64,000 nucleotides of DNA. Source: Rugalucina vietnamica. Its lineage: Eukaryota; Mollusca; Bivalvia; Lucinida; Lucinidae. The position numbers were made by a program, and so were the translations under genes. Below the pieces are notes generated by a model. The model made no database searches and had not been told where the DNA came from. It saw only the letters and a list, made by a program, of their open reading frames with translations. The DNA is taken from positions 15,619,226 to 15,683,225 of the forward strand of contig OZ024876.1 in assembly GCA_964017185.1 (NCBI GenBank), written 5' to 3'. Shown here piece after piece: positions 12,226 to 43,838 of the stretch; positions within the stretch are counted from its first letter, which is position 1, and each line of letters opens with the position of its first letter.

Positions 12226-13720
12226 TGAGCTGCGTAACGTAAGAAAACGGGATTACATGTATTGTCTATGCAAAAACAAAGTCGCAGATCAGCTGTGCAG
12301 TTGCTGATCAGCCCCTTTGTTTTCGCTACACAGATAGTACAATTTCTCTTCTTCCTAAATCTTCAAGCTTCTAGCCTTTTTCCGAGATTGTACAGCCCTC
12401 ATGAAAATTTGATGTCTGAATCCTGTCTGAATTTGTCTAATTTTTTTCTGGAAATCTGCTGAAAAAAAATCTGAATCGGTCTGAATTAGTTATAATTGCT
12501 TTTCTTAATATCTGCTGAAATTGGGACTATCCAGAAAAGATTCAGACAATTGAAGAACTGGTTCAGATATTTGATACATAAATAATAAGCACTATTCAGT
12601 CATTGTCAGAACTAATGTAGAAACAATCAGATATTTTCAGAACAAATTCAGTGCATTATTCAGAAAGGTTCAGTCAGCTTAATCATTCTGAATTTAATCT
12701 AAATATTTCTGAATACTGCTTTTCTTAATATCTGCTGAATTTGGGACAATTAAGGAAAGATTCAGACATTTTGCAGAACTGGTTCAGATTCTTGAACCAA
12801 CACTGAATATTTCTGAAATGTTAATCTGAACTTGTCTGATGGCTGAATCCACCCCCCCTCCCCCCCATTAATTCAAACTTTACTTTATATACCCATTATA
12901 TTTCATCAGTCATAATCAACTTCAGGAAGTAGTGTTTTCAAAGTATTCCCATAAGTTTTCAGATTGATCCTGGTTGATCACGTCTCTCAAGCCAAAAATG
13001 AGTGTGTAACATGTATTTTGTAGTGGGTGGGGTAATGATATTTAACTTTAAAGGTGAATTTCAGGGCAACACATGAATAATAGGCTTATACAAGCATCCA
13101 TTTAGTTCTTAATATTTTCTTGCATGTTTCAGTCATCTTTCCTCATCATTCAGTTTCTTTAAATTAAGTAAAGATTTCTGTTGAGTTTGACCTTTTTGTT
13201 CTGCAGACAACTTTGAAAAAGGAAATTCCCAGCATGCATAGAAGTCACATGACTTCCTGTTGAATTATTCAGAAAGATTCAGACAAATGCAGACAGAAAT
13301 ATTCAAAAGGATATGATTCAGACATATCCAGACCATTCAGAAAGATTCAGATTTTATTTCATATAAGAACTCATACTAATTTGGTTCAGAAAGATTCAGC
13401 TCATTATGAGGTTCAGAAAGATTAAGACCATACAATAGATTCATAAAGATTCAGACAATTCAGAATATTTCAGCCTGATTTCAGATTCTGAATCTTTCTG
13501 AATATCTATCAGAGCATGTCCAGTCATGGTTCAGAAACAATAAGACAAAAGGATTTAGTGTTCAGATGGAATCAGACAATAATTTAGTGTTAAGCCAGAC
13601 TTCAGTACTAAATAAGATAACTTCAGCCAAGTTAATAAACTATTCAGAAAATTAAGTTCATGAGGGAGGTCAGTTTGACTTTGTGAAACCCGGAAGACAA
13701 GTTTTCTCGTGTCGCGGTTC
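12226..13720 (+). mobile_element. M1 MITE split by a 1.27-kb insertion
   Basis: The left part (12226-12395) carries the terminus, the palindrome relic and the 'acagatagtacaatt' block. The right part (13667-13720) carries 'cagtttg..gaaaccc..gaagac' and the terminus 'gttttctcgtgtcgcggttc'. The two halves join to one M1 when the TCTGAAT-rich segment between them is removed. The right end lies 29 bp upstream of the exon at 13750. Confidence 0.75.
12396..13666. mobile_element. TCTGAAT-rich insertion with CCCTCATGAA ends
   Basis: It is bounded by the inverted 10-mer CCCTCATGAA / TTCATGAGGG. The outer parts are crowded with the motif TCTGAAT on the left and its complement ATTCAGA on the right, so the arms are loosely self-complementary. 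A non-repetitive middle (about 12860-13250) has no supported ORF. I do not recognise the family. Confidence 0.6.
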
Positions 13721-13749
13721 ATTTACAAACTGTATAATTTACCTTGTAG

Positions 13750-13903
13750 GTGACTACCAATGCCCAGGTGTTTGACCTTGACAATGCCATAAGTACTCTG
13801 ACTTTGACAAAGAACTTGACCAAGTCAACTGATGGTGGCACTTTTGAGTGTAAAACAGACACAGGAAATCACGAGTCGAGGATTTCAGTCCATCTCTTTA
13901 CTG
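13750..13903 (+). CDS. Basigin-like exon a: second half of first Ig domain
   Basis: The acceptor is tttaccttgtag/GTG (phase 0) and the donor ACTG/gtaaga (phase 1). It encodes 51 residues with the Ig C-terminal signature DGGTFEC, a sequon KNLT and the strand-G-like ending ISVHLF. The partner half-domain with the first Cys and Trp was not found in 1-13749. An alternative acceptor 18 bp downstream (cccag/gtgt) exists but has a poor pyrimidine tract. A 51-bp poly-A run follows in the intron at 13956. Confidence 0.85.
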
Positions 13904-13954
13904 GTAAGATACTTAGGATGTTTCGTTTCATTAGAAAACACACCTATGTTAATA

Positions 13955-14008
<54 letters not shown>

Positions 14009-17000
14009 CAGCTTGAAAAATAGCAATTTTCAGTTGAAAAACAAATACATTTTTCTTACTGTTGGCTCAAAACATTAGTTGTGTGTACACGTAAGAACTA
14101 GCTCTTATTGTTTTGTAGCAAAAGTAAGAAAAAATGTATGCCCAGGTAAACCACAGTTTTACTGTAAAGATGTAGGGTTTATGGGATGGACATATACCTC
14201 TATGCACTTCTCATTCACCATCTTTGCATTATCTGCTGGTTTCAAGCTTACAAAAACTCAGTATTGGAAATATGGGTAACCAAATCCATACTGACTGGTA
14301 CTTCCAATATTGAATGTGTCCTAGCTGGAAACCAACCTGAAATGCAAAAACGGAGAATAGTCTAGTAGCACACTTGTTAGTCAATAACCAACCTAGGTTG
14401 ATCTTCAAACCATTTGTACAAAATTCCTCTTTTTATTGACATAACGTTCCTGCGGTCATTCTGTCCCCATGGTTACCTGACACGTCCAGGTTAGAGACAA
14501 CACACAAAGTACATGTATAAATCAAAATGAGGTTGTATCGATGTTGTCATTATGCATGTATGGGAACAGCTTTCCACAGATCAGATTGATCTGTGGCAGA
14601 TCTGTGGCTAGTTGTTCCCAAACAGTATTTACTTCTTGTTGTGGCTTATTGGTTTCATCTGCCTGAGTTGTTTTCAGTCACATGTGAGCCGCCTCATAGG
14701 CGAAAACAAAGACGCAGATCAGCTTCGCGGTAACCGCGAAGCTGATCAGCGCCTTTATTTTTGCTACTCAGATAGTACAATTCCTCTTCTACTTAAATCC
14801 GAAATTTCAAGCTTCTAGCTCTCTTCTGTGCTTGTACAGGCTGGTTTGTGTCAGACCGGTTCGGAAATTACATTGTTGGTTTTCCCACGAGGTGGCTCAT
14901 TTGTTGTCTCTATAACCTGTTTTGGTGTGAATGACAGGCTGACATTATTCTAGCTTTTGGCTGTTAACGGTAGCTATACTAACATTTATCCAATAAGGAT
15001 ATATTTGCTGGGCCATTCTGATGGTAAAATTAGCAATGTAAACTGTAAAATAGAGAAATTTTCGCATTAGAGTTGATCATATTTTCTGCTTAACAGATAA
15101 TATTACATGTAATAACACTTTATAAATTATCAATAACAATTTATAAATTAAAATTGATTAAGTTCGATCCCCACAGGCGTCACCGTTTTGTGTCCTTGAG
15201 CAAGACACATTAACTATCTTCAGTACTGGTTAAACCAAGGAAAAGTTGGCTCCGTCCCGACAACTGAAAAATTTTTGACTGCGACGTTAGGCCTCAATAC
15301 AAAAAAAAAGATTAACAATCATGATAATCATGATAATCTAAAGTAAAAAATAATTTATAATAAAAATAAAGGCCGAAAAAGTAGGTACAATGTAAGGCAG
15401 AACTTTGCTATTAAATGTACATGTACCAGTAATAGTTTTTAGCTCGACTGCACGAAGTGCATAGAGCTATTGCAGTCACCCCGGTCGTCCACGTTCCCGT
15501 TCCCGTGTGCGTTCCCGTTCCCGTGCGCGTCACACTTGCGTTAAAGTTTTCTAGAAGTCCATATCTTGACAACCACTCATCAGAAAGCATTCATACTTGG
15601 ACCATAGATACCCTGTAGGGTTAGCTTTCATTCCATGGCATCGGGCCCCTGGGTCCAGGCCTGGGGGGTGGGGCTGGAGGTTAAAATCTAGAGCACCTTA
15701 AAAATAGCTATTATTGTGTTAAAGTTTTCTAGAAGTCCATATCTTGACAACCACTCATCAGAAAGCATTGATACTTGGGCCATTGACACCATGTAGGATC
15801 GGCTTTCATTCCATAGCATCAGGTCCCTGGGTCCATGCCAGGGGGAGGGGCTAGAGGTTAAAATCTAGAACACCATTAATAATAATGGCTTTTCTGTGAT
15901 ATTGTATTCTAGAAGTCTATATGTTGAAAAAATTTTATCAGAGGGCTTTCATACTGGGACCATAGGTACCCTGTAGGGTTGAGTTTCATTTCATGGCATC
16001 GGATCTCTGGGTCCATGCCTGGGGGGTGGGGCTGGAGGTTAAAAACTAGAACACTGTAAAAAATAGATGTACTGCTGTGTAACTTTTACAAGGAGTCCAT
16101 ATCTTGACAACAACTTATCATAAAGCATTCATACTTCGTACACTTTAAGTTCCATGGCATCTGACCGGGTCGGAGTCAGGGGGGCGGGGCTAGAGGTCAA
16201 AATCTAGGACACCGATTTTTTTTTCTTTTTATTTCTTAATAGAAACAACTTAGGAAGATGGTTGGTCATTCATCTTTTGACTTTTTGACACTATCTTGTG
16301 TGTCACGACGGTAAGGGTCGGTTGACCTACTTTCCATGGTTCAGTGATTTTGCCTTATATGTTGACACTCAATTAGTATATTTCTTACTTCTTTCAGATT
16401 ATGAGTGAGTACGACCAGGCCTTTGACCCCAATATACTTATAGGTCACTGTGACCTAATTTCACGGTTCAGTGATTTTGCCTTATATCTTGACACTCAAT
16501 TAGTATATTTTCATACTTTTTCAGATTATGAGTGAGTATGACCAGACCTTCGACCCCAATATACTTATAGGTCACTGTGACCTAATTTCACGGTTCAGTG
16601 ATTTTGCCTTATATCACGGTACTCAAATGGTTTATGAACAAACTTCTTTCAAAGTATGTTTGCTTATGACAAGACCTTTCACCCTGAAGTAAACCTAGGT
16701 CACTGTGACCTAATTTCACGGTTCAGTGATTTTGCCTTATATCTTGACACTCAATTAGTATATTTTCATACTTTTTTCAGATTATGAGTGAGTATGACCA
16801 GACCTTTGACCCCCAATATACTTATAGGTCATTGTGACCTAATTTCACGGTTCAGTGATTTTGCCTTATATCTCGGTACTCAAATGGTTTATGAACAAAC
16901 TTCTTTCAAAGTATGTTTGCGTATGACAAGACCTTTGACCCTGAAGTAGTCCTAGGTCACTATGACCTTATTTCACGGTTCAGTGATTTTGCCTTATATC

Positions 17001-20000
17001 TTGACACTCAATTAGTATATTTTCATACTTTTTTCAGATTATGAGTGAGTATGACCAGATCTTTGACCCCAATATACTTATAGGTCACTGTGACCTAATT
17101 TCATGGTTCAGTGACTTTGCCTTATATCTCAGCACTCAAGTGGTTTATGAACAAACTTCGTTCACACTATGTTTGCGTATGACAAGACCTTTGACCCTAA
17201 AGTAGTCCTAGGTCAATTTGACCTGATTTCACGGTTCAGTGATTTTCCAATACATCTCGGCACTCAATTGGTATATGGACATACTGCTTTCATGATATGT
17301 ATGAGTATGACAAGACCTTTGACTGTAAAGTATTCCTGGGTCACTGTGACTTAATTTCATGGTTCAGTGATTTTGCCTTATATCTCGACACTCAGTTGGT
17401 ATTTTTTTATATTTCTTTCTGATTATGAATGAGTATGACCAGACCATTAACCCAAACATACTTATAGGTCACTATGACCTAATTTCATGGTTCAGTGATT
17501 TTGCTTTATATCTCAACACTAAATGGGTATATGATCATATTTCTTTCACATTATGAGTAAGTATCACTAGACCTTTGACCCTGAAATACTTATAGGTCAG
17601 TGTGGCCTTATTTCACGGTTCAGTGATTTTGCCTTGTGTCTTGGCACTCAGTTGATATATGAACACACTTCTTTCACAATATGAGTGAGACCTCTAAATC
17701 TTAGGTAGTTATAGTTAACTTCCATGGTTCAGTGATTTTGCCTTATTGCATCATGGGTTACTGGTCGGGTTTGGCCTTATGTTTGACAAAGGTCAGAAGC
17801 AGTCGAGCACGCTGTCCTGCGACAGCTCTTATCTTAAACATATGGCCACTGTTTAATTGAGTGTAGATCTCTATTTACATGTATGTAGGTAATGGTAAGT
17901 AGCAATGAGTTACTGAGTTTTCTTTCATGTAGTCATTCTCTTAGACTTCTTTAAACTGTGGAAATTTTGCCTCTTTCTATGAGCCATATGAGCCACGACG
18001 CGAGAAAACGGGTCTGCAGGGTTTCCGACCAGGTCAGACACAAACTGGTCTTTGCAACTACAGAAGATGGCTAGAAGCTTGAAATTTCAGATTTATGAAG
18101 AAGAGGAATTGTACTATCTATGTCCCGAAAATAAGGGCGTTGATCAGCTGTGCAATTACTGCACAGCTGATCAGTGCGCCTTTGTTTTCGCTTAGGCAAA
18201 AATCTGGTTTTCTCATGACGTGGCTCCTATCACAAGAAAATCTGTTTCAAGGACAAAGTGAGCTATACAACCTCTAAAGATGGAATAACAAAATCAACAG
18301 ATGAATGACAGACTTGTAATGTGAAAGTGAGATCATCTAAATTGTCTCTGAAATATGGCTCAACTAAATTTGATATTGACCTTAAACCCTATATCCATGA
18401 TGCAACCAAAATACTTACTGCGCAGATATTGATACAACACCAGATGACAAGTGACAAAATGTAGTACATTGATTGGAAATAAATACTGAATTCCTGTAAG
18501 AGCCGAGCGAGTATACATGTATTTATGAGAAAAGGGATGGACCCTACTGCGGTTTTGGGCCACTCAACCCTCTTCAGTGACCCTTTAGATTTGGCAAAAT
18601 GGAGCCAAAGAGAAATATTTTAATTTTGCAACTTTCAACAAGATAGTCGATACAAAGACTAGTTACCTACACAGAGCCAAATATATAAAATGTTGCAATA
18701 GAAAATGAATCTGAACCAATAATGAATTTCTGATTTCTCAGAATACTCTCGCTGATCTCAAAGGACTAAAAGGAAAATATAATCTGTACTATGGATAATG
18801 TACGGGGAGACTTTTTAGGGCCACCACATGGCACAACACCAGCTGCAATAATAGCAAATAAAATAAAACTGAATTCCTTTAAAAGCAGCGAGTATATTAA
18901 GGAGAAAAACGGATGGGCCATACCCCGGTTTCAGCCACTAAAGCCTAATAAGCAACAACATATGAGCCGCCTCATGGGAAAACCTCACGGTAACCGCGAA
19001 GCTGATCAGCGCCTTTGTTTTCACTACTCAGATAGTACAATTCCTCTTCTACTTAAATCCAAAATTTCAAGCTTCTAGCTCTTTTCTGTGCTTGTACAGG
19101 CCAGTTTGTGTCGGACCTGTTCGGAAACCATATTGTTGGTTTTCCCACGTGACGGCTCATATAGCAAAGCAATATCAATTTTGCAAATACCTAAAAGCCC
19201 ATTTGATGAGGCTTCCAATCACGGCACTGCATCTTGTCATATGTGATGTTGAATCAGTCTGCGCTTTTAAAATTATGGGTAAACAGGGTGTTCTTAGACA
19301 CAAAATTTCCAATCTAAACTATTCACCATTTTTGCATTTATCCAGTACCTTAATTAGGCTGCGTATTTGCGTAATTACCCAATTAAAATATGAAAAAACG
19401 CAATTAATAACGATCTGGTAGCATAAGAAAACGCAAACGCAATACCGGAAAAATCAATTGCGTACCAGTTTTTTATCGGTGTGCGCCGCAGAACGGCTTA
19501 CGCCGTCTAGATTAAACAAAAATGTCATTGGACATGCGCAAATCGATCAATTGGAAGCCATTTCTTTTCTGTTTTTTCGTTGGTTGACTGCGATTTTAGT
19601 TAATTCTCTCAACCAATCAATGTTTCCCTTTTATTTTATGCTATGCAAAAGCAAAAGTAGAAGAAAATAAGGAAAGTACACCTCGAACATCATTTTTACC
19701 AAATTGTTTTCCATTTTACCCAATTGATTGAAAATAGAGTGCGTAACAGAATTGAACTTACCCAATTAAAATTCCAGATACGCAATTGAATGAAAAAGGG
19801 GTGCGTAAATACCCTATAGGCTAAAAAATTAATTAAGGTACTGAATTTATCGGCTGGTTTCCAGCTTACAAATAATCAATATCGGAAATACAGGTAACCA
19901 TTTACCACCCTGACCTTGAGGTCAGGGTGGTTATGGTTACCTGTATTTCCATTATTGATTTTTTAAAGCTGGAAACCAGCCGATCAAAAATGGTGACTAT

Positions 20001-23000
20001 AGGCAATAAATAAGTACTGGTACATGTAAGAAGTAATCCGAGTCTAATTGTATATGATTCTGTATACTTATCTGGGTCTTTGAATTATGAGTAATATACA
20101 GGTTTTCTTGTGATGCTGCTCATATTTTCTCATCTTTTATTTCATAAAATTTATTTAGGCAGTTATATTATTATTTAGTTTTTCTTGTTTATTTTTTCCA
20201 CTATATGTGAGTGAACTTTATTGGTTCATTATTATATGAGCTGCATTGTGGGAAAACCTGTTTCAGGTATAGATAAGTCTCGACTCAAGAAAACCTTTCT
20301 TTGATGTTTCTAACCAGGTCTGACACAAACTGGTTTGTACAGTCACAGAAGAAGGCCAGAGGATGGAAATCTTGGATTAAAGTAGACAAGGATTTATATG
20401 AGCCATTGCATGCAAAAACCAACAATTTGGGTTCCAACCAGGTCCGACACAGGCTGGTCTGTACTGTCACAGAAAAACGCTAGCAGCTTGAAACTTTGGA
20501 TATAAGTAGCAGAGGAATGGTACTATCCTTGTAGCGAAAACAAAGGCGCTGATCTGAGCTGTGCAGTTACTGCACAGCTGATCTGCACCTTTGTTTCGCA
20601 TACGTAAATTGTTAGTTTTCTGATGCAGCGGCTCATATTATATAAGTACATGTACTATCATAATCTATTTAGCTTTAAGACAAGCAGCCTTCATGAGCTG
20701 TGGAGTCACTGTACAACTGATCTGCGTCTTTGTTTTCATATAGGCTCATTACTAGGCTCGATCCTATTTTGCCGACCACTTTGCTTCAGTTTAGCTCTTG
20801 CCTTGTTGCAATAAGCTTTCATACATTAACCACTGCATGAGAAAACCAGCAAAATGCTTGGGCGAAAACAAAGGCGCATATCAGCTTCACAGTAACTGCG
20901 AAGCTGATCAGCGCCTTTGTTTTCACTACTAGGATAGTACAATCCCTCTTCTTCTTAAATTCGAATTTTCAAGCTTCTAGCTTGCTTCTGTGACTGTACA
21001 GGCAGGTTTGTGTCGGACCTGGTGGGAACCCATATTGCCGGTTTTCTCACGCACAGGCAGACATGTGTAAAGCTAGTATTTCACTGGCATGCGAATTTCT
21101 CGCAGCTGTTTTGCAAATTTTGTCGCGGACTTTCGCACGACATTCGTGTGAGTGTCACACGAGTGTCGTGAAAATTTTCATGTGTGGCGAACTAGTCGCA
21201 AATTGGTGGCGAAGGTTTTAAACATGTTTAAAAATTTTATGCGAATTTTTCTGCCAAAATATTTCGCAAGACTGTCCCGCGACGCTTGTGCGACGTTTGT
21301 GCAAGTGTCGCGAACCTGTCGCTGCCAAATTTTTGCAAATTTTTAATGAGAAATTTTTGCGACACTCATACAAATGTCGTGCGAGTGTCATACGACAGTC
21401 TTGAGAAAACATGGGAACACCTCGGGACTATCTGGCGAGAAAATAAAACAAAGCGACATTCGTACAAAATGTCTTGCGACACTTTCACAAATGTCGTGTG
21501 TCACTGTCGTACGAATTAGAATGAAAATAAGCTGCATTCGCTGGAAAGTCGTGAGACACTCTCACGAATGTCTCGCGACTGTGGTGTGACAGTTGCGAGA
21601 TATATTTTCAAAATTAGACTGAAATTCACGCATTTGTGGCATAAATGTCCATTCAATGAGACTGCAATGTGAAAGTTGTGTTTATTTATTATGAACTATT
21701 CACAAACTAGTCTCCAGTTGTCGCATTCTAGTGAAATAAGGGCTTATCTGAAATTGCATGTCCTGCTCAAAGGTGTTTAGACTGGAATTTATTCTTCTCC
21801 AAAATGCAATGTTTGTAAAATTTCAAGAATTTATAGCATTTTAACTAAAAAAAAAAAATATTTTATTTTCATTTTCAAATTTTTAAGGGAAGTTTGAATT
21901 CTTTGCTCCGCTGAAAAATGAAAAAAAAATGTTAAATGTTATTTAATAACCTTTGGGCCTGGTCATGAAACACAATCTACAGATGTTCTCATGATCAGGT
22001 TTAAAATGTTCAATTTAATTCATTGTGAAATTTTATCTTGATTCTATGCATATTAATGTATAAAATTCACCATCTGATCATAAATATATGATTGTATAAT
22101 TGTATATTTATCCATTTGTATCTATGTTTATCTTGTATCCTATCTCCAAGGGCATTTACTGTCAATGTCACTTATAGAAATTTTACACACTATTCAAGCT
22201 TTTTTTATACCTTTATGAAGAAAATGTACATGAACAGTACCCTCTGGCTGGCTTTTGAAATCGAGTTGGAAACTTTTGCCATTGATAGCGTGGTATGAGA
22301 AAGCTTGCTATTTTCATCACGATAACATGTCGGTGTAATGTATACCCCGTTATACCCCACTTTTATATAGTAAAACTGGGATATGCAGGGGTATACCTAT
22401 TTTTCTTTTTTTTTTGCTCCTAAACATAGATTGTGGGTACTCGTTAGAACCGCCTTGGCAAGGGGGTTCTAATGAGTACCCACCATCTATATGTTTTGGA
22501 ACAAAAATAAGAAAAAATGTATTAAAAAATCTATTGAAAAATTTCCATTTTTACAACTCAAGAAAAAAATCTGCATGTTACATGGGCATGTTTTCGTAAT
22601 GTTAGCAAGGGGATAGAATTACTCACAACAGAACAGAACAGAGTATGCTAAGGCAAAGCACCTTTGTTATTATTAAAAAAGTACTTTACTACATTGACGA
22701 GTCATAAAGTGGGATAACAAGATATTTAGGTATATGCCAGGGTTCAAGCTAACCAAGAACTTTAGTGAGAAACTTCTTCTCTCCCCAAGAAAATTAGGAT
22801 GTTTGAATTGAATTTCAGGTTTGCGTATATATATTCTATACGCTTTTATTAGCTCACCTAAGCCGAAGGCTCATAGGTGAGCTTATACAATGGTCAAGCT
22901 CTGGTGTCGGCGTCTTTGTGTTCGTTGTCATTCTCCACAATGTTCAAACATCTCCTCTGAAACTTAATATGCAGTACAAAGGATTCTCACATTTTATCAA

Positions 23001-26000
23001 CAAAAAATAACAGTGTATTTGCTTATCTTAAAACGAGTTGAGGTCTTAACCATGACGATGACTTAAGCTAACAATGTTGTTTTGAACAACTGACCGCTGA
23101 TCTGTGCAAAGAACTATAATTACTGATAAGTCTGTATCATTATGGATGTGCATGTAGTTTGATCTGTGCTGTTTCTGGTGTGGTTGAGATAAAGAGTGGG
23201 TTTACCCATGACATGACTTTTTAATTTTTTCATATTCATAGGCATGTGTAGCATTATCAGGACACTGACATGCATAATCATTGTTATCATCCTATTTGTA
23301 AGAACAAAAAATGCCTAAAAAATCCAGCCTGCATGTACAGAATGATGTTAGTACACAGCCAGATTGATTTGTGGCTTAACATCCCAGTAAACAGTACACA
23401 GCCAGATTGATTTGTGGCTTAACATCCCAGTAAACAGCTATGGTCATAACAGGAGGTTGTCTTCTTTTTCTGGGACTTCTATCCAACGTTGAGGCATTGT
23501 CAAAACATCTAAAATGAGCTTTTCCACCAAAATTAACAAGAAAGATTTGATTGTAGTTTTATATTTCTGATCGTTCCAATGCGATATTTCTGTAGTGGTT
23601 CTAATTGTTTTATGTTTTTTGCATTGAATTTTTTTTTGTGCTGTTTGCGCCTTATGTACGTTTTCAAATTTTAGTTAAGTTAGGGTAACTAAGTGCCAGC
23701 CTATTGGGAAATAGCTGCTTACTCAGCTTACAATCTGTTTTCTTAGTACAGTATAAGTATCTGATTGTTTATAAAGTTTTTTCTCACCTCAGTTATTGGA
23801 GTGGGAATTTCTTTCTGATTGTGTCATTTCTTGTTCATTGCCTACTTTCACCTTTTAACTTGACATTTATTGACTTTGGTTCTGATTGCACCAGTTCCAG
23901 GCCCCGAGGTTATAAAACTTTTTTCATGCTCAACTCAGCTGAGCATGAAATTTCAACTGCTGATAGAATGCTGAAAATAGTAAAAAATTGTGGAATATTC
24001 AGGTTCAAAACTAAAAAACTAGTAATTTATCCTGCTTAAAAATGTTAAAATGCCAACAATTGTTGGCATTTTAACATTTATGTGCAGGATAAATTTTCGT
24101 CTCAGATGAGTTGAGCATGAAAAAAGTTTTATAACCTCTGGGCCTGGTTGTTGCTTACCTTTCAGACATTCTTAAGGAGATTTTTTTTAATGAACTCAGT
24201 GTTTTAAGTCCAAAGTCGATGAGGCCCCCCCAGGGGTGGAGGGTCTTTGCTCACTGCTCCCTGAAAGAAAAATGACCATTCTCCCCAGCTCCCAAAAATG
24301 TTTTTCCTCAGCTCCCTGCTCCCTAAAACCTCAAAAAGTTATGCTTTCTCCCCAAATCCCTGAAAATAAATGACCCTTCTCCCCAAATCCCTGAAAAATA
24401 GCCCTTCTTCCTGAATCCCCAAAACCCCTGGGAGGGCCTTGTCGATAGCTAAGTTCATGTCAAGATGGTCAATTATATCCCAGATGCATATTATATGAGC
24501 CCCAGCATAAAAAAACTAACAACATGCATATGTGAAAACAAAGGTGCTGATCACACAGATCAGCTGTGCAAAAAAAAAAAGTTGAGATGCCTCTCATTTA
24601 TTATTACCTTATCTTGCCTTTTCTATTTTAGTTTCTCTGAGCAATGACAATCTAGTAAAGGGGGCGACGTCCGTCACTCTACAATGTGTCCCTGAAGGTG
24701 TGAGCCCCTCTGATGACATCAAGGTGGCATGGATCAGAGATGGCAAGAACCTAACTACGGACAGCAAGTACATCATATACGCGGAGAACAACTCCCTGGT
24801 GATTAATGACCCAGGTATCTGTTACAACTTTTGTTATTTCCTCAGCCATATTCTTCTAATCCTGAAAATACTTGCTTACAAAATACAGTTGAAGTTGTAG
24901 ATTCATTGAGGTTACAGGTTGTTAGTAAATTTATTTGATACATTATTAATTAACTTATTATGCCCCCAACTTTGAAAAAGTTGGTAGGGCATATTGCTTT
25001 GGGCTTGTCCGTGTGTCCGTGTGTCCGCACCACTTTTTCTTAACTTTTAAACGGTGGATGCTAGTGTCTTGAAATTTCATATATGGATTCCTCATGAAAA
25101 AAAAGATGACCCGTATTTTTTTTCTTTTCTGAGTTATGCCCCCTTTCTGAATTATCTCCCTTTGAAAAAAAATCTTGAAAATCTTGTGTGCAAGATATCT
25201 CAAAATGTATTTGAGCTAATGCTTTCATATTTGGTATGCTGATTGGGAACAAGGAGTAGATCACATGATTAACTTTTGAGAACTTTTTGTCAAATTTTGA
25301 CAAAATTACGGAATTTTGAAAATTTATCAATTTTACCACTTTCGGATTTAAGTGTGCATCTGTTATCACTGTTAGTCCTCAAGTTTGCTATTTGTGCCCA
25401 GGTCAACTCTGTTTGCTTACATGATTTTCAAAAATAATGAAAAAACTGTGCCAGGTTAGTGGCAAGCATACAGTTGGGGGCATAGTGTTTTACAAACACT
25501 TATTTCTAGTTAGTTTATAGTCCTTAAATACAGAGAATTTGGTCTGTGGCATACTGGTGACATTTCTTTTATCGCATAGTCTATACTGGATTTCACCTCG
25601 ACCTAATACAGCTGACATCGCACTATTACAGTTGACCTTGTATCTATATGGATTGACCTGCTATCTGTATGGAAACCCCTACATCTGATTGGTCAAAATA
25701 CGACACGCAAGGTCATGTGCCGCGTTTAATGTCGGAATAATGAGTTGAGACAAAAACAATGGCGGCGATTGAGCCGATCAAGTAAAATAGTGAACAAACA
25801 AACAAAATTCATGTCAGCATCTTTGAAAAGAATGTCAGACATGGGTGCTAAGAATGATGAAGGTATGCTTGACAGCGGATGATATGGACAGATATGGACT
25901 TTTGATAGTTAATTAATGAAAATCTCATTAACCAAGTTATTTTGTATTGGACCAGTTACAGGTCCTCAGCTGTATTTGTACTAATTAGTGCACAGCATGC

Positions 26001-29000
26001 TTAACTTTTCAAAATAACTTAAGGTTACCATATCTTTCTAATCAGCATACATTACAAATAAAAACAGCAAGCAAAATTGCTGAAATCAGCAAATAAAATT
26101 GCTGAAATAACTATGTCAAAACATCAGTGATGATGTCATTTAAGTGTTCCAACTGATGCAAAATAGTGTTTGAACATTTAAAGTTACGTTTTCATGGGAC
26201 TGATATGGTATTAATGTGGAAAGTTTGTGCAAAATACCAATATGCTAGTCTAGCAGTGTGCCTTATTTTTGGAAAAGAGCAGGGCTTGTGCTTATTGTAG
26301 CATGTGTGTTTATTAGAATGAATATGGTATATTTGAAACTGAACTGACAATATGTTTTTATTCATATCTTTAACTTATTTTCCAATGTCCTGTAAACTAT
26401 AAAGTTTGAATTCAGCCAGAGTTTTAAAAACTTAACAGAATGGTACAAAATATGGTAACCTGACCAGAGTTGTTTTGTTGGATTTCAGTTCGAGCAGATA
26501 TGGGCGAATACATCTGTGAAATTGTCTTCAACGCTGGTCATGCTGAGGAGCACAGAGTTCGACCTCAGCCACTGTTTGTTGGAGGTAAGTTCATGAAAAG
26601 GGCAGTGGCACAAGAAAAACGGGCTTCACATATGAAGGCTTTTAAGAAAAAGAGGGATTGAACTATCTGTGAAGTGAAAAGGGTACTGATCAGCTGTGAT
26701 AGTAAAATATTCTAATGTCATATAGAGGATATTTACATTTTTTAGTTGAATACCAAATATATTTCATCGAATGTGTTGAAAACATTATGTTCATAAGTGC
26801 ACAGCATGAGTGAAAATTTTGATGTTTTCAACACAAGATGAAATATATTTGGTATTTACCGGAATGAAAGTGAATTTTCTTTTTATGCCCCCAACTTTGA
26901 AAAAGTTGGAAGGGCATATTGCTTTTGGCTTGTCTGTCTGTCTGTGTGTGTGTGCGTCCGTTAACTTTTGAACGGTGCATGGTAGGGTTTTGAAATTTCA
27001 TGTGTGTATTCCTCATGAAAAAATAGTTGACCCGTATTTTTTTTCATGTCTAGGTTATGCCCCTTTTCTGAGTTATGTCCCTTTGAAAACAAAATTTGAA
27101 AATCTTGTGTGCAAGATGTCTCAAAAAGTATTTAAGCTAGAGCCTTCATATTTAGTATACTGATTGGGGCTGAGGAGTAAATGACCTGAAAAAGTTTTGA
27201 GAGCTTTCCGTAAAATTTTGACAAAAATACGGAATTTTGAAATTTTGATTCGGTGAAATTTGAAACTTTTGAAAGGTGAATGTTAGGGTTTTGAAATTTC
27301 ATATACAGATTTCTCATGAAAAAATAGTTGACCCATATTTTTTTCATGTCTGAGTTATGCCCCTGTTTGGAGTTATGCCCCTTTCAAAACAAAATTTGAA
27401 AATCTTGTGTGCAAGATATCTCAAAAAGTATTTAAGCTAGAGCCTTCATATTTCGTATACTGGTTGGGGCTGAGAAGATGATCACCTGATTAACTTTTGA
27501 GGACTTTCCGTCAAACTTTGGCAAAAATACTCGATTTTGAAATTTTCACTCCATTTCTAACTTGTATGTAAAAAGCTTACATTCTGTTTCTGGATCGAGG
27601 TCAAAACAGAGGCAACAGGAAATTAAATTTCACTTCATTCCAATGAAATGAATCATACAAGCTGCCAGTTTAGGGGCAAGCATACAGTTGGGGGCATAGT
27701 GTTTTACAAACACGCATTTCTAGTTATTATTTTATATAATAAATGTATGTTTTTCCGTTGAAGAGACTGAAAATGTAAAAAAAAAAAAAAAAAATTGAAA
27801 ACACAATTTTTATACAAAATTGTTACTTACATTCTAACGTCAAGTGACTAGAAACCTCAGGAATAATCCAAATTCTACAGTGAAAAATGAAACCATTGGC
27901 TGATATGAATCACTAGTGAAAATATCAATATCAGTGAAAATATTACTTTTATTTATTTTTCATATACATTGATTTCACTGGTAAGTATAAAATAAAATGT
28001 CATTTCTCTTTCAGCACCCCCAGCCATTGAGGGAGGCAGTCAAAGGAAGGACAAAAACATGGTCCAAGGGGAACAACTCGACCTCACATGTAAAGTATCA
28101 GGCTACCCATTCCCTACGGTCGAATGGCGTAAAGATGGCAAGGAATTCAACACTACAAAACGCATCCATTTCTCAGAATATGAAGGCTCGCCGACAGGAA
28201 AGCTGACTATTTATTCCCTTGACTTTGACGATAAAGGAGCGTACACATGCATTGCTTCGTCTCCGAGATTTGAAAACCAAACTGCAACTGCTGAATATTT
28301 CATCCGAGTTAAAGGTAAGATAACTTGCTACAGTTTTGAGATTAATTGCTATAAGTTTGAGATGAACAAATACAAGTCTTGTGTCTTATAAAATTTATGA
28401 GACATAGGCAAACGAAAGCGCTCCAGATCTGACAAACATTTTTTTTATATTACAAAGCCCCATCTGGGGCAGATGGGGCTATTCTGTTTGCTTAGAGGAT
28501 TTTCATAAAAAAATTTATTGTCTGCTTTTTCAAGAGGGAGTGGTGGGTTCCAACCCGAGCTACCTTGATTGGTGCTCAGCATTGTAAGGCAAACACTTGT
28601 TGATGCCTGTCATGTTGGTGACAAGTGTTCATCCTGACATGACTTAATTATAACAAACCCGCATATCAGGTAGGAACGTGATTTATATTATTTGAGCCAT
28701 GTCATGAGAAAACTGGATTTTCACATATTTGAAAACAGAGGCACAGATCAGCTGTGCAGTAACTGCACAGCTGATCATCGCCTTTGTTTTTGCTACATGG
28801 ATAGTACCATTCATCTGCTACTTATATCCAAAGCTTCAAGCTTATAGCGTTCTTCTGTGACAGTACAGACCGGTCTGTGTCTGACCTGGTTGGAAACCGA
28901 AATTGTTGGTTTTCTCATGTGATGGCTCAAATTTTGATATTCTGTGACAGCTATATATCTATGCCTCAGACCTGCTGATCTGTGGATAGGGCAATTCCTC

Positions 29001-29732
29001 CACTTTCTAAATCCAAAATATCCAGCCTCTAGCCATCTTTTGTGATTGAGCATCTCGGTTTGTGTTGGACTTGTTCGAAAACCACATTGTTGATTTTCTA
29101 ATAACATGGTTGAAATGTTCATTCCAGACAAGCTTGCTGCCCTGTGGCCATTCCTGGGTATTGTTGCCGAGGTGATAGTTCTGTGTGCAATCATTCTCAT
29201 CTATGAGAAAAGGAAGAGCAAACAGATGCAGGACGAGGATGACTCCCCGGACGCTAACGAGTGAGTAGTTCTTCTATTACATGACAGAACGCAATTATAA
29301 TGTGTTTTTCAATATAACATGGTCATGTCATGGCTCCTAAATTGATTTTTTTGCTATATGTCTTTAGTAAGTAACCTCATTATAACAGTTGAAAAATGCA
29401 TATTAAAAAAAAAAACAAAAAAAACTCCCTTTGAATGTTCCCACTGCTTCCAAAGGATCTTACCTTTATATTTTAAAGGTTAAAAAGTTTTATAACTGCG
29501 AAGATGAACAGCGCCTTTGTTTTCTCTACACAGATAGTACAGTATTCTTCTTAAATCTAGAATTTCAATTTCATACTTCTAGCTTTCTTCTGTGACTGTA
29601 CAGGCTGGTTTGTGTCAAACCTAATCGGAAACTCAAATTGTTGGTTTTCTCACCCATATGCTCAAATTTAATTGTGTTCCTTGCAGAGATGAGAAAAAAG
29701 ACCATGGAGATGTGAGACACCGCAGAACCTAG
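13750..29732 (+). CDS. Basigin/neuroplastin-family Ig membrane protein, 3' part (six exons)
   Basis: Joining 13750-13903, 24632-24814, 26489-26584, 28015-28314, 29128-29260 and 29687-29732 gives one open frame of 303 codons and a TAG stop. All junctions have AG acceptors and GT donors, and phases agree throughout (0 in, then 1,1,1,1,2). Order, numbering from the first visible residue: half an Ig domain (1-51, Cys34), Ig domain (52-144; Cys70, Trp85, Cys122), Ig domain (145-244; Cys170, Trp182, Cys223), transmembrane helix (about 248-270) with a buried Glu259, and a basic then acidic tail. N-glycosylation sequons are at Asn22, 91, 104, 190 and 232. The segment LAALWPFLGIVAEV is the hallmark of basigin, neuroplastin and embigin. 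In vertebrates these are chaperone/accessory subunits of monocarboxylate transporters and plasma-membrane calcium pumps and act in adhesion. Three Ig domains match the long isoforms. Basigin and neuroplastin cannot be told apart here, so no symbol is given. The signal peptide and first half-domain are outside or unseen. Confidence 0.9.
13956..14006. repeat. Poly-A run, 51 bp
   Basis: An uninterrupted A tract lies in the intron shortly after the first exon. Length in the assembly may be unreliable. Confidence 0.95.
14211..14360. mobile_element. Decayed hairpin element (same family as 19318-20002)
   Basis: The left arm 'attcaccatctttgca..gctggttt' and right arm 'agctggaaacca..tgcaaaaacg' are inverted relative to each other. 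They match the arms of the longer hairpin at 19318-20002. Confidence 0.55.
14686..14898 (+). mobile_element. M1 MITE
   Basis: Termini GAGCCGCCTC and gaggtggctc; perfect palindrome CTTCGCGGTAACCGCGAAG. A short deletion just inside the left terminus removes the 'aaaaccaacaat' block. Confidence 0.9.
15165..15300 (+). repeat. SINE-like fragment with TTGAGCAAGAC block
   Basis: 'gttcgatccccacaggcg' resembles a tRNA B box and is followed by 'gtgtccttgagcaagacaca', a block shared with 33735-33760, 51855-51880 and, diverged, 62355. It ends near a short A run at 15300. Other stretches between 14900 and 15437 hold nothing I can name. Confidence 0.45.
15440..17833 (+). mobile_element. H3 satellite-cored element, complete
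   Basis: The head is AGCTCGACTGCACGAAGTGC. The core has four units of about 180 bp (15540-16210; 'agaagtccatatcttgacaa') and then about eleven units of about 127 bp (16310-17760; 'ggttcagtgattttgcctta'). The 3' end carries the inverse of the head ('cagtcgagca') and the hairpin GCTGTCCTGCGACAGC (17811-17826) followed by TCTTA. The layout is the same as H1, H2 and H4. No protein is encoded. Confidence 0.75.
17990..18226 (-). mobile_element. M1 MITE, reverse orientation
   Basis: Termini gagccacgacgc and gacgtggctc. The palindrome variant is GCTGTGCAATTACTGCACAG, near the right end. Confidence 0.85.
18470..18946. repeat. Two dispersed-repeat fragments
   Basis: 'ctgaattcct..aagagc..cgag' followed by 'gagaaaagggatgg' occurs at 18485-18545 and, diverged, at 18870-18945, and again near 61670-61730. 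No coding content. Confidence 0.45.
18964..19158 (+). mobile_element. M1 MITE, internally deleted
   Basis: Both termini are present and 'atat' flanks both sides. The first arm of the palindrome is deleted (only 'ggtaaccgcgaagctgatc' remains). Confidence 0.85.
19318..20002. mobile_element. Long hairpin element interrupted by another element
   Basis: Arms 'gctggtttccagctt' and 'aagctggaaaccagc', 'caggtaacca' and 'tggttacctg', 'accaccctgacc' and 'ggtcagggtggt' fold around 19915-19925. The outer arm 'attcaccatttttg' (about 19321) is separated from its continuation by a 501-bp insertion; its partner 'caaaaatggtga' is at 19985-19996. Confidence 0.75.
19343..19843. mobile_element. hAT-like 501-bp non-autonomous element
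   Basis: The termini CAGTACCTTAATTA / TAATTAAGGTACTG are inverted. The flanks catttatc (19335-19342) and aatttatc (19844-19851) match at 7 of 8 bases. A CAG-start TIR and 8-bp duplication fit hAT; this is inference. The interior is AT-rich with no transposase frame. Confidence 0.7.
20238..20397 (-). mobile_element. M1 MITE fragment
   Basis: Carries 'gagctgcattgtgggaaaac' and the 'ccaggtctgacacaaactgg' block, and stops where the next M1 begins. Confidence 0.65.
20400..20634 (-). mobile_element. M1 MITE, reverse orientation, full length
   Basis: Both termini are present; 4-bp flanks 'atat' on both sides; palindrome GCTGTGCAGTTACTGCACAG. Confidence 0.9.
20833..21056 (+). mobile_element. M1 MITE
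   Basis: The left terminus is eroded (actgcatgagaaaacc), the palindrome is near-perfect (cttcacagtaactgcgaag) and the right terminus is 'ctcacgcacaggc'. A small palindrome fragment of another M1 lies at 20690-20755. Confidence 0.75.
21074..21742. mobile_element. CGACA/TGTCG-rich element with inverted ends
   Basis: The ends 'agtatttcactggcatgcga' and 'tcgcattctagtgaaata' are imperfect inverted repeats. The middle (21110-21600) is crowded with TGTCG, CGACA, TCGCGA and GTGTCGT motifs in both orientations, unlike the CpG-poor surroundings. The overlapping short ORFs on both strands are by-products of the repetition. Family not recognised. Confidence 0.5.
22316..22601 (-). mobile_element. M2 hairpin MITE
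   Basis: The ends catcacgataacatg and catgttttcgtaatg are inverted. The central hairpin pairs 'agattgtgggtactcgttag' with 'ctaatgagtacccaccatct'. The same family occurs at 36103, 48774, 51405, 56977, 57750 and 59065. Confidence 0.8.
22850..22977 (+). mobile_element. H1 head fragment
   Basis: The head AGCTCACCTAAGCCGAAGGC and its inverted partner GGTGAGCT are present. The core is lost after about 120 bp, where M3 sequence begins. Confidence 0.7.
22978..23092. mobile_element. M3 MITE, right half
   Basis: Matches the right half of the M3 at 36416-36610: 'aaaggattctcacatttt', 'caacaaaaaataacagtgta' and 'ttttgaacaact'. Confidence 0.65.
23350..23435 (+). repeat. Exact 43-bp tandem duplication
   Basis: Two identical adjacent copies start at 23350 and 23393 ('agtacacagccagattgatt'...). 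The identity suggests a recent slip or an assembly artefact. Confidence 0.85.
23702..23872 (+). repeat. Dispersed repeat ('ggagtgggaa' family)
   Basis: The blocks 'ctattgggaaatagct', 'ggagtgggaatttctttctg' and 'ttgcctactt' recur at 47205-47265 and, inverted, at 47572-47699 and 55788-55938. Confidence 0.55.
23897..24147. mobile_element. M4 inverted-repeat element
   Basis: The left end 'ccaggccccgaggttataaa' and right end 'tttataacctctgggcctgg' are near-perfect inverted repeats that continue through 'ttcatgctcaact'. An inner perfect hairpin 'gccaacaattgttggc' lies in the centre. A second copy lies at 29785-30225. Confidence 0.8.
24230..24440. repeat. Short C-rich degenerate tandem repeat
   Basis: Repeats of the type 'ctccccaaatccctgaaaat' with a period near 32 bp. 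Intronic. Confidence 0.5.
24495..24600 (+). mobile_element. M1 MITE fragment (left half)
   Basis: Carries 'gagccccagcataaaaaaac', 'gtgaaaacaaaggtgctgat' and a decayed palindrome ending in an A run. The final 'gatgcctctcattt' may be the eroded right terminus. The exon at 24632 starts about 32 bp further on. Confidence 0.5.
24632..24814 (+). CDS. Basigin-like exon b: first half of second Ig domain
   Basis: The acceptor is ttctattttag/TTTC (phase 1) and the donor CCAG/gtatct (phase 1); 61 codons. It carries the first disulfide Cys (VTLQC) and the core Trp (KVAWIRDG) 15 residues later, and the sequons KNLT and NNS. It ends just before the DxGxYxC motif, which is on the next exon. Confidence 0.9.
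24959..25510 (+). mobile_element. H4 element, copy 1
   Basis: The head is TATGCCCCCAACTTTGAAAA, followed by pairing GTTGG..GGGCATA. The 3' end is 'gttgggggcatagtg', the hairpin AGTGTTTTACAAACACT and TATTTCTAGTTA. It lies in an intron of the basigin-like gene. Both-strand ORFs are shadows. Confidence 0.7.
25511..26488. other. Intron, no feature recognised
   Basis: AT-rich intronic DNA between the H4 copy and exon c. No inverted ends, tandem array or coding frame stood out. Confidence 0.5.
26489..26584 (+). CDS. Basigin-like exon c: second half of second Ig domain
   Basis: The acceptor is gttggatttcag/TTCG and the donor GGAG/gtaagt (consensus), both phase 1; 32 codons. It encodes RADMGEYICEI, the typical DxGxYxC turn that places the second disulfide Cys, then the closing strand and the linker to the third Ig domain. 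No M1 copy abuts this acceptor. Confidence 0.9.
26750..26858. repeat. Short stem-loop element
   Basis: The arms 'taccaaatatatttcatc' and 'gatgaaatatatttggta' continue through 'tgtgttgaaaaca' / 'tgttttcaacaca', giving a stem of about 33 bp. Intronic. A weak M1-like trace ('gcactgatcagctgtga' type) precedes it at 26600-26700. Confidence 0.65.
26883..27725 (+). mobile_element. H4 element, copy 2
   Basis: The head and 3' hairpin (GTGTTTTACAAACAC, then GCATTTCTAGTTA) are the same as copy 1. The core holds two diverged units of about 290 bp ('cctcatgaaaaaatagttga' and 'tctcatgaaaaaatagttga'). Same intron side and same orientation as copy 1. Confidence 0.7.
28015..28314 (+). CDS. Basigin-like exon d: complete third (membrane-proximal) Ig domain
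   Basis: The acceptor is catttctctttcag/CACC and the donor AAAG/gtaaga, phase 1 at both ends; exactly 100 codons. It contains the whole I-set-like domain: LDLTCKVSGYPFP, VEWRKDG, LDFDDKGAYTC and the closing strand ending FIRVK. Two sequons (NTT, NQT) are present. A symmetric phase-1 exon carrying one full domain contrasts with the second domain, which is split. Confidence 0.95.
28693..28928 (+). mobile_element. M1 MITE, full length
   Basis: Termini gagccatgtcatg and tgatggctc. Perfect palindrome variant GCTGTGCAGTAACTGCACAG. It lies in the intron before the transmembrane exon. Confidence 0.9.
28973..29112 (+). mobile_element. M1 MITE remnant abutting a splice acceptor
   Basis: The right two-thirds of M1 are recognisable: 'ggatagggcaattcctc', 'aaatccaaaat', 'cggtttgtgttggac', 'aaaaccacattgttga'. 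The terminus has decayed to 'ttttctaataacatggttg'. Exon e begins at 29128, 15 bp later. The terminus now contains CTAATAAC (29098-29105), a plausible branch site 22-25 bp before the AG. Confidence 0.7.
29128..29260 (+). CDS. Basigin-like exon e: transmembrane segment and proximal tail
   Basis: The acceptor is atgttcattccag/ACAA (phase 1) and the donor ACGA/gtgagt (phase 2). It encodes DKLAALWPFLGIVAEVIVLC and then AIILIYEKRKSKQ. The family's membrane helix has a Glu in its middle, a Pro near the outer face and a basic stop-transfer cluster, followed by an acidic stretch QDEDDSPDANE. In vertebrate relatives this helix contacts transporter partners. The acceptor lies 15 bp from the end of a degraded M1 copy. 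Confidence 0.95.
29494..29663 (+). mobile_element. M1 MITE remnant abutting a splice acceptor
   Basis: Only the second palindrome arm (actgcgaagatgaacagcgc) and the right half of M1 remain, ending 'ttttctcacccatatgctc'. The terminal exon starts 23 bp downstream. Confidence 0.8.
29687..29732 (+). CDS. Basigin-like exon f: C-terminus and stop
   Basis: The acceptor is gtgttccttgcag/AGAT. The first base completes Glu289; then DEKKDHGDVRHRRT and TAG (29730-29732). The ending resembles the short basic C-terminus of neuroplastin/basigin (an arginine-rich stretch after a charged Lys/Asp run). The acceptor is 23 bp from the right end of an M1 copy. Confidence 0.85.
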
Positions 29733-38123: not shown

Positions 38124-38359
38124 TGAGCCGCATCGTGAGAAAATGGGATTTTTGCCTATGCGAAAACAAAGGCGCAGATCAGCTTCGCGGTAACCGCGAA
38201 GCTGATCAGCGCCTTTGTTTTCGCTACACAGATAGTACAATCTCTCTTCTTCTTAAATCCGAAATTTCAAGCTTCTATCTATCTTCTTTGACTGTACAGG
38301 CCGGTTTGTGTCGGACCTGGTCGGAAACCCCGAAGACCGGTTTTCTCGCGTCGCGGCTC
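38124..38359 (+). mobile_element. M1 MITE, full length and well preserved
   Basis: Termini GAGCCGCATC and cgtcgcggctc; flanks 'attt' on both sides; perfect palindrome from about 38172 to 38210 centred on GGTAACC. A good reference copy for the family. Confidence 0.95.
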
Positions 38360-38669
38360 ATTTCATCATATTGTAAGACTGATTTTTGTGTATTTTAATG
38401 ATAGAGGATTGTTAGAAGTATGATTTTCATTTATTTTGTACATAGTGTAATAATAATATATAGAATAAACACATCTTTTACTCTCTTTACATTTATTACT
38501 GATCCTTGTCAGTAAGTTCTGTGAAAAATCATCATTCTCAGAATTTGCAAAAAGCTCTCCTAGTGAAAAAATTAAGTGCGTACTCCAAAAACATGGTAAC
38601 CCAATTGTGGTTAAGCTGTTTCATCAGGAAATTATGTCCATTAAAAGTAACTTCCTTGGACCCCATTTT

Positions 38670-42136: not shown

Positions 42137-43838
42137 TTACAGATTATCACTTTTGATTGCTTGTTGCAAATACCTTTTACGTCTGTCTGTTGCATGATAT
42201 AGATACAGATCCCTGGGCGCCCAATAACTTACACCGGAGCAAAAGAAAACCACCAGTTGATCCCCGGTGGGCCAAGCAACAGACAAGAGGCTCCGGCCCA
42301 AACCAACTAAAATGAATAGCTTTATGTCGGGGCCATCATAGAGTCTGACGCCCGACCCACCGGCGTGCAATTAAAGAAGGCAGCATAGTTATCAACTGTG
42401 ATTGGGTTAAAAACTAGGCATGCATACTGTCGCATAACATTTAAGTTATATCCTATACGTCTGTAACGCGTAATGATTTTTCTGAATTGAAAAGAAAAAT
42501 CATTCCTTCCAATAAGTTTCTTAAATTTGTAAACCAAGTCACCATAAAATTCTGGTTCCGAAAGGCCCTCACGTAAAAGCGTATTTTAACCTACATTATA
42601 TTTGGAAATCAATTCATAGTGTCTGCGATAAAATTTAGAAAAGGTTTTTCGAAGTTTATGATACCTATGGCCCTGCTGAAGAAGTTTGGCTGTTAAACAT
42701 TTATTTCGTGCATTGAAGTCCGCAACATGATTGCAGACTCTAGCGAACCTAATAAGTTGTGAAATGTATACGCCATAAGAAGCACGGCGAGGAACGTCAC
42801 CATCCAAAAACGGAAAGTTTTCTATATCAAAATCAAAGTCATCAGGTTTATCATAAATTTTAGAAAGTTCAGTGGTAGTACAAGAACTAGAATTAGCAAT
42901 AAATTTAGCTTTGTATGGTCTTTTGTGAAGCTTAGGTAACCAATACATCGTAGGAAGTTTGTCTTGGCCTTCATTAACAAAAACAGAAAACTTAACAGGT
43001 AATTTATTTAGGTGAGCATTAACTACAGACATTTCATCAGTATCTGTCTCTTGATAAGCCCTGGTACCATCAAGCTCCTGTTTTAAGGTGTTAATATAGT
43101 GAAGCCTACAAACAACAACAACGTTGTTTGCGGCCTTGTCTGCTGGAACCAAGTCATACTTTCTATGGAATTCTTGGATAACCTGCTTTAAATGCCTGAA
43201 GGAGGATTTGGGCTAAGGCGTTAAAAGATTAGTATTCTGTGAATAAAGCTTTATACGTTTATCCACAAGTGAAGATACTTCTTTTCCTAGCTTTAAGAGC
43301 ACCATCCTCAACACCCTCTCGTTTACACCATCGATTACCGAATTCATTTAATGCAGATGCAATCTCCTCTCTACACTTGTCGAAATTAATGTAGGAAGGG
43401 AATCTGTATTTCGGACCTTTCGAAACAATATTGCGAATTCTAGAATCCGAAATGACTTTTAAATTTCCAGTTACTATATGTCTGAATCTTTACACTCTCA
43501 AGACTTAGGAGTATTAGCATGGATATCAAGATCAAAAACAAGTTTATTGAAATTAAAAATTGTATTTCTGATTGGTTTGTTATATTTGTAACAAATAATA
43601 GGAGGTTCCGAGTTTTGGAAGTACGTAGGTATAGACTGTGATACTGATTTGTCCTGGAATATACTTGGTAAATCAATGAAGTCGATTCCTTTATTAATGA
43701 ATGAGATTTTAATGAAATGCCGTATATGATTAGATTCGGAATCGATAAATGGACGAAGAGCGTGTTGAGTATAACATCTTGTCAGCAGTGCAACGTCGTA
43801 CATTAATGATTTCTATCGTAAAATCTGTTAGCCTCTGT
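42137..43838 (-). pseudogene. Penelope-like retroelement, degraded
   Basis: Read on the - strand, the fragments are in order. First, 43838-43498 carries an N-terminal block with 'SFINKGIDFIDLPSIF' and 'ICYKYNKPIRNTIFNFNKLV'. A stop- and frameshift-ridden stretch follows (43440-43200; 'VSKGPKYRFPS', 'EIASALNEFGNRW'). Then 43152-42586 is an open 188-codon stretch with 'VPADKAANNVVVVC' and the RT motif 'LPTMYWLPKLHKRPYKAKF'. After 'TTTELSKIY' it jumps directly to 'DFDIENFPFLDGDVPRRASYG', so the catalytic core of the reverse transcriptase is deleted in frame. The C-terminal part continues at 42537-42137. LPK(L/I)HK-type RTs of this kind belong to the Penelope-like group as I recall it. The copy cannot encode an active enzyme. 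Confidence 0.7.

Follow-up and report, generated by a model that had tools for sequence, protein, structure and literature searches.

Three of the six exons of a plus-strand gene begin shortly downstream of the terminal edge of one and the same small repeat, M1, in the 64-kb stretch of DNA that was analysed (the window). The clustering of M1 ends at the acceptors of exons a, e and f is confirmed as an observation. The reading that we favour tentatively, with a probability of roughly 0.4, is that truncated relics of a MITE have been tolerated at acceptors that existed before them, and that at least once such a relic probably took over the role of the branch point. A single gene cannot establish a general rule for M1 at acceptors. 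The features discussed are collected in Table 1.

Table 1. Exons, M1 copies and candidate splicing signal, in positions of the window.
Feature	Positions	Strand	Remarks
Exon a	13750..13903	+	second half of Ig domain; acceptor AG 13748-13749
Exon b	24632..24814	+	from joined exons and agreement with P0001
Exon c	26489..26584	+	nearest upstream M1 edge 5.4 kb off
Exon d	28015..28314	+	nearest upstream M1 edge 7.0 kb off
Exon e	29128..29260	+	transmembrane segment
Exon f	29687..29732	+	cytoplasmic tail and stop codon
M1 right-end relic, model 200-237	13684..13721	+	28 nt before exon a acceptor
M1 left-end fragment, model 1-66	24496..24570	+	profile; ends 61 nt before exon b acceptor
M1 internal fragment, model 75-134	26641..26697	-	starts 56 nt after donor c; without terminal edge
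M1 full-length copy	28693..28929	+	profile; shares intron with exon e relic
M1 left-truncated copy, model 106-237	28983..29113	+	14 nt before exon e acceptor
Branch-point-like CTAAT in M1	29098..29102	+	A at 29101, 26 nt before last base of intron; motif match only
M1 left-truncated copy, model 68-237	29493..29664	+	profile; 22 nt before exon f acceptor

The gene and its predicted product

The six exons, when joined, give a read-through of 303 aa that ends at a stop codon. All five introns between them have GT..AG borders, and exon a is preceded by AG. P0001, which ranked first among 313 homologues (120 listed), shares 90% identity across the whole 303 aa and agrees at the protein level with all six exon starts, including those at 13750, 29128 and 29687 that the earlier note had proposed for exons a, e and f and that were recovered here unchanged. 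Since P0001 is located on a contig of 1437 bp, it looks like a transcript. Exon a matches P0001 and P0002 from VTTNAQVF on, and an in-frame TAG ends at 13749. Residues 1-79 of P0001 found no convincing match within the 64-kb window, so that upstream exons probably lie beyond it.

Concerning the nature of the product, Pfam recognised Ig domains, and the solved structures matched by the 303-aa protein included Neuroplastin (9gsd, E 3e-27, query 62-287) and Basigin (7y1b, E 5e-19, query 78-285), the top-scoring PDB chain being sidekick-1, another Ig protein. Among the matches listed, the best named relatives were bivalve proteins, for instance from Mactra, Ruditapes and Dreissena. As judged from its sequence, the predicted product is basigin/neuroplastin-like, with Ig domains and similarity to that family through the transmembrane segment.

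Rfam gave no matches over the window at gathering scores, there were no tRNAs in it, and nine other open reading frames (of 50 listed) gave no Pfam families. The longest stop-free stretch among the listed frames (42586-43212, minus strand, 208 aa) had no Pfam match. The intron between exons a and b contains a run of 51 A at 13956-14006, counted by eye.

The M1 element and its target site

M1 is 237 bp long and has terminal inverted repeats of about 28-30 bp (TGAGCC... / ...GGCTCA), as given by cross-strand matches of its ends. Being short, present in many copies and bounded by inverted repeats, it is, on these structural features, most likely a non-autonomous DNA transposon (MITE). A profile built from 14 copies, the three acceptor copies not among them, found 38 copies or fragments, none overlapping another, across the 64 kb at a score of at least 8 bits, a count somewhat higher than the figure of about 34 given before. 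Twenty-seven upper-coordinate terminal edges in the window are able to face a plus-strand acceptor. A translated M1 copy matched 7265 predicted proteins, all of those among the 120 matches listed being from ENA contigs; M1-like sequence is thus very abundant somewhere, though not necessarily in this species. Exact M1 patterns gave no matches in the collections of viral contigs and genome contigs, and the exact string GTTGGTTTTCTCA did not occur in the literature searched.

Candidate target duplications of 2 bp matched in 11 of 20 copies, against 3.05 expected, and could also be read as 4 bp (match in 8 of 20). The sequence ANNT was found at 20 of the 27 edges, compared with 10% of window positions, its A being the last base of M1 itself. 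The independent part of the signature is the T at the third outer base (23/27 edges against a background of 32%), and on the left side there was an A at the third outer base in 15 of 20. A target signature so clearly AT-rich would suit a preference of M1 for 3' splice sites, one of the readings in the earlier note, if insertion were guided there by target sequence or chromatin. Against it, ANNT was only slightly denser before the six acceptors than elsewhere (14% versus 10%, M1 sequence included), and for 24 of the 27 edges no known acceptor follows within 30 nt, 15 of these edges lying beyond the gene, where exons are unknown. We consider such a preference very improbable.

M1 relics at the acceptors of exons a, e and f

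The three relics end at 13721, 29113 and 29664, one base from the ends claimed earlier (13720, 29112 and 29663), and the gaps, counted from the last base of M1 to the last base of the intron, measure 28 nt (exon a), 14 nt (exon e) and 22 nt (exon f). The statement that three of six exons lie shortly 3' of an M1 right end is thus borne out. In the case of exon e, the profile match stops at 29109 and was extended by 4 bases to model position 237. All three copies are in the orientation of the gene, as had been noted, but since the ends are inverted repeats, a reversed copy would show a similar end. Each of the three junctions carries the target signature (ATTT, AAAT and AAAT for a, e and f, the first A being the last base of M1).

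The relic before exon a is only 38 bp long, scored 8.9 bits with the profile (E 0.023) and was missed by BLAST with one M1 copy at E 1e-3. It showed 87.5% identity over 40 bp to 38324-38363 (E 2e-7), and an ungapped identity of 84% compared to a maximum of 61% among random segments.

In each of the three cases, M1 stops 14-28 nt short of the end of the intron, leaving the AG outside, and fills much of the usual branch-point zone. There are no M1-coded residues at the exon junctions relative to P0001. An exonised transposon was rejected, as the AGs are outside M1 and the exon starts match P0001. There are species in which introns arise from small inverted-repeat elements, the introners (PMC9860276), and M1 could be imagined to have made introns or acceptors here in the same manner. 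However, none of the five introns is matched in its extent by an M1 copy, and in the shortest of them (426 bp) M1 starts 232 nt after the donor. The borders of the element neither match an intron nor supply a splice site, and all lower-coordinate terminal edges of M1 are at least 378 bp away from each of the five donors. It is exceedingly improbable that M1 acted in this way, and the candidate was rejected.

The remaining acceptors

The nearest M1 edges upstream of exons b, c and d are 3.6, 5.4 and 7.0 kb away. Exon b had been put forward as a possible fourth case. The left-end M1 fragment before it is certain, but the degenerate candidate right end at 24596, 35 nt before the acceptor, is not significant once offsets are taken into account: its probability was 0.003 at that place for 12-16 nt and about 0.1 over 31 offsets, with nothing at 20-24 nt. 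When the 200 nt before each acceptor were compared with the window itself, only M1 matches reached the acceptors of a, b, e and f.

Two other repeats were observed in the introns. An imperfect palindrome at 27872-27993, 61% self-complementary, ends 21 nt before acceptor d, and one part is 78% identical to the opposite strand of 60070-60118; the palindrome may be what remains of some other small transposon. Copies of a second repeat, which contains ATGCCCCCAACTTTGAAAAAG, lie at 24948-25500 and 26873-27720 (extents by eye), in introns b-c and c-d, the two copies being 91% alike over 65 bp.

Significance of the clustering

An M1 edge was within 30 nt of 3/6 acceptors, compared to 0.08 acceptors expected from circular shifts of the edges. 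At least three of six was reached in 40 of the 63,999 shifts over 64 kb (P 6.3e-4), and P was 5.3e-4 when shifting was done in the first 30 kb and 2.1e-3 with a limit of 60 nt. Random placement within each intron, keeping its number of edges, yielded P 1.3e-4 with a limit of 30 nt and 5.9e-4 with one of 50 nt, or 3.0e-5 and 2.7e-4, respectively, with the last 12 nt excluded. All these P values are post hoc, as the pattern was picked after the data had been seen; a correction factor of about ten, which is our own judgement, gives about 1e-3 to 1e-2.

The main competitor of the tolerance reading at this point is coincidence: the region is rich in M1, there are six acceptors, and the pattern was chosen once many repeats and features had been viewed. 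The 64 kb contain 27 suitable edges, the acceptors of b, c and d have no M1 edge within 3.5 kb, and with a limit of 20 nt only one of six acceptors qualifies (P 0.05). The expectation of 1-2% per acceptor in the earlier note holds for the average (1.2% of intron positions have an M1 end at most 30 nt upstream) but not for the last two introns, where the proportion is 5-6%. Nevertheless, the P of 1.3e-4 was obtained with these differences between introns preserved, and the values remain low even after the generous post-hoc factor. We regard coincidence as somewhat unlikely.

Truncation, predicted folding and possible survivorship of the relics

The copies at acceptors differ from most others in having lost the far end. 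A loss of at least 60 positions was found in 3/3 acceptor copies against 2/24 other edges (P 0.0034), the truncation class (5/27 edges) having been set by hand. Folding was predicted for 26 of the 27 edges, leaving out the one at the end of the window. The predicted unpaired probability of the last 28 nt was 0.29, 0.39 and 0.48 for a, e and f, compared to a mean of 0.19 in 21 full or near-full copies (rank test of 3 versus 23 edges on rounded values, P 0.01). Five of these 21 copies exceed the exon a end, and two truncated copies away from acceptors fold tightly (0.20 each). In this tiny sample, the predicted difference agrees with a model in which the M1 end would be masked by an intact left arm.

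Truncation would also be expected if deletions erode old M1 copies in general and those adjacent to exons, not being deletable from the exon side, simply outlast the rest without any function. In agreement with such survivorship, the part missing in the three copies is the one distal to the exon, copies a and e are only 68% and 77% identical to the consensus (e being the ninth most diverged of 38), and M1 fragments persist also 56 nt after donor c and 61 nt before acceptor b. On the other hand, the distance of at least 378 bp between donors and lower-coordinate edges does not show the same effect on the donor side, though five donors are few. In addition, the copy of exon f (85.5% to the consensus) is not unusually diverged, and the divergence of relic a partly reflects its subtype, since it is 84% identical to a copy of its own subtype. 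Survivorship is in our view unlikely.

Candidate splicing signals in M1

Branch-point candidates were sought as yTnAy motifs 14-55 nt before each AG. Exon e has two of them, both inside M1. For exon f, M1 accounts for one candidate (34 nt) and host sequence for another (15 nt); for exon a, the candidates are the last base of M1 (28 nt) and a host site (24 nt). Considering all the edges, yTnAy occurs in 23/27 (85%) when the terminal 40 bp and one further base outside are taken, compared to 61% of random segments; the excess is modest, the five-base motif being common by chance.

The M1 end had been described as pyrimidine-rich. This is right as to direction but the enrichment is only mild (58% versus 50% in random window segments), and the tract of exon e is weak, with 53% pyrimidine from -20 to -4, the lowest of the six. 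The suggestion that M1 donated the pyrimidine tracts near the AG was rejected, because in 3/3 cases the last 14-28 nt are located downstream of M1; for the same reason, M1 is no donor of the acceptors. Two other readings offered in the earlier note, tolerance and a donated branch site, fit the data. From the position of the motifs, M1 may have supplied candidate branch points, but neither acceptors nor near-AG tracts.

Discussion

The favoured reading, tolerated relics with at least one branch-point takeover, can be put as a series of steps. M1 copies would have inserted into AT-rich sites lying no more than about 30 nt ahead of three acceptors. These acceptors are probably older than the insertions, because the protein junctions are unchanged. 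The insertions would have left in place the AG and the adjoining nucleotides, which are seen outside the element, and would have occupied the branch-point zone that M1 is seen to fill in large part. Splicing probably continued, with M1 supplying the branch point at exon e and perhaps also those at f and a, because M1 ends often carry branch-point-like motifs and because the left arm able to fold had been lost. What is present now would be the left-truncated relics. Some facts count against a functional reading: it concerns one gene and three events noticed after the fact, the copies of exons e and f sit in the most M1-dense introns of the gene, and exons a and f have host-derived branch candidates too.

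Should acceptors tolerate or recruit M1 ends, this would show how branch points can be replaced although the exons do not change, and the abundance of M1 would make the matter testable inside one genome. It is quite improbable that the inverted repeat of M1 is a portable branch-point module whose truncated ends have repeatedly replaced branch points genome-wide; if it were so, a notable share of the acceptors in M1-rich genes would depend on transposon sequence.

Concerning known systems, no description of MITE ends at mollusc acceptors was found in the titles and abstract excerpts of the papers listed by the literature searches. The haemoglobin genes of Lucina pectinata are reported to have MITE-like short repeats in introns and promoters, also in a bivalve (PMC4732748); that account, in its excerpted form, makes no link to acceptors, and the likeness to M1 is by description only. 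Some introners (PMC9860276) are, like M1, small and bounded by inverted repeats, and they have short target duplications; introners, however, give rise to new introns and draw on splice sites at their edges, and M1 does neither here. In mammals, Zhang, Romanish and Mager (2011, PMC3088655) report transposons to be under-represented near exons, in a zone whose width for all DNA transposons is 50 bp in the human and 100 bp in the mouse genome. Most of the transposons within the zone are truncated there, as are 3/3 here. Unlike the mammalian situation, three M1 terminal edges are located at the acceptors of one gene, and at the donors there is only the internal fragment (56 nt). According to the same paper, three retrotransposon classes, in a comparison that left out DNA transposons, are rarer near acceptors than near donors; M1, which here lies closer to acceptors than to donors, shows the opposite arrangement. 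The closest parallel to what is proposed for exon e is the primate gene BLOC1S2, in which, as described in PMC6822395, MIR and AluSp give branch point sequences. There, however, they also give the AG and the GT, and with them a new exon, while here neither the exons nor the AGs are M1.
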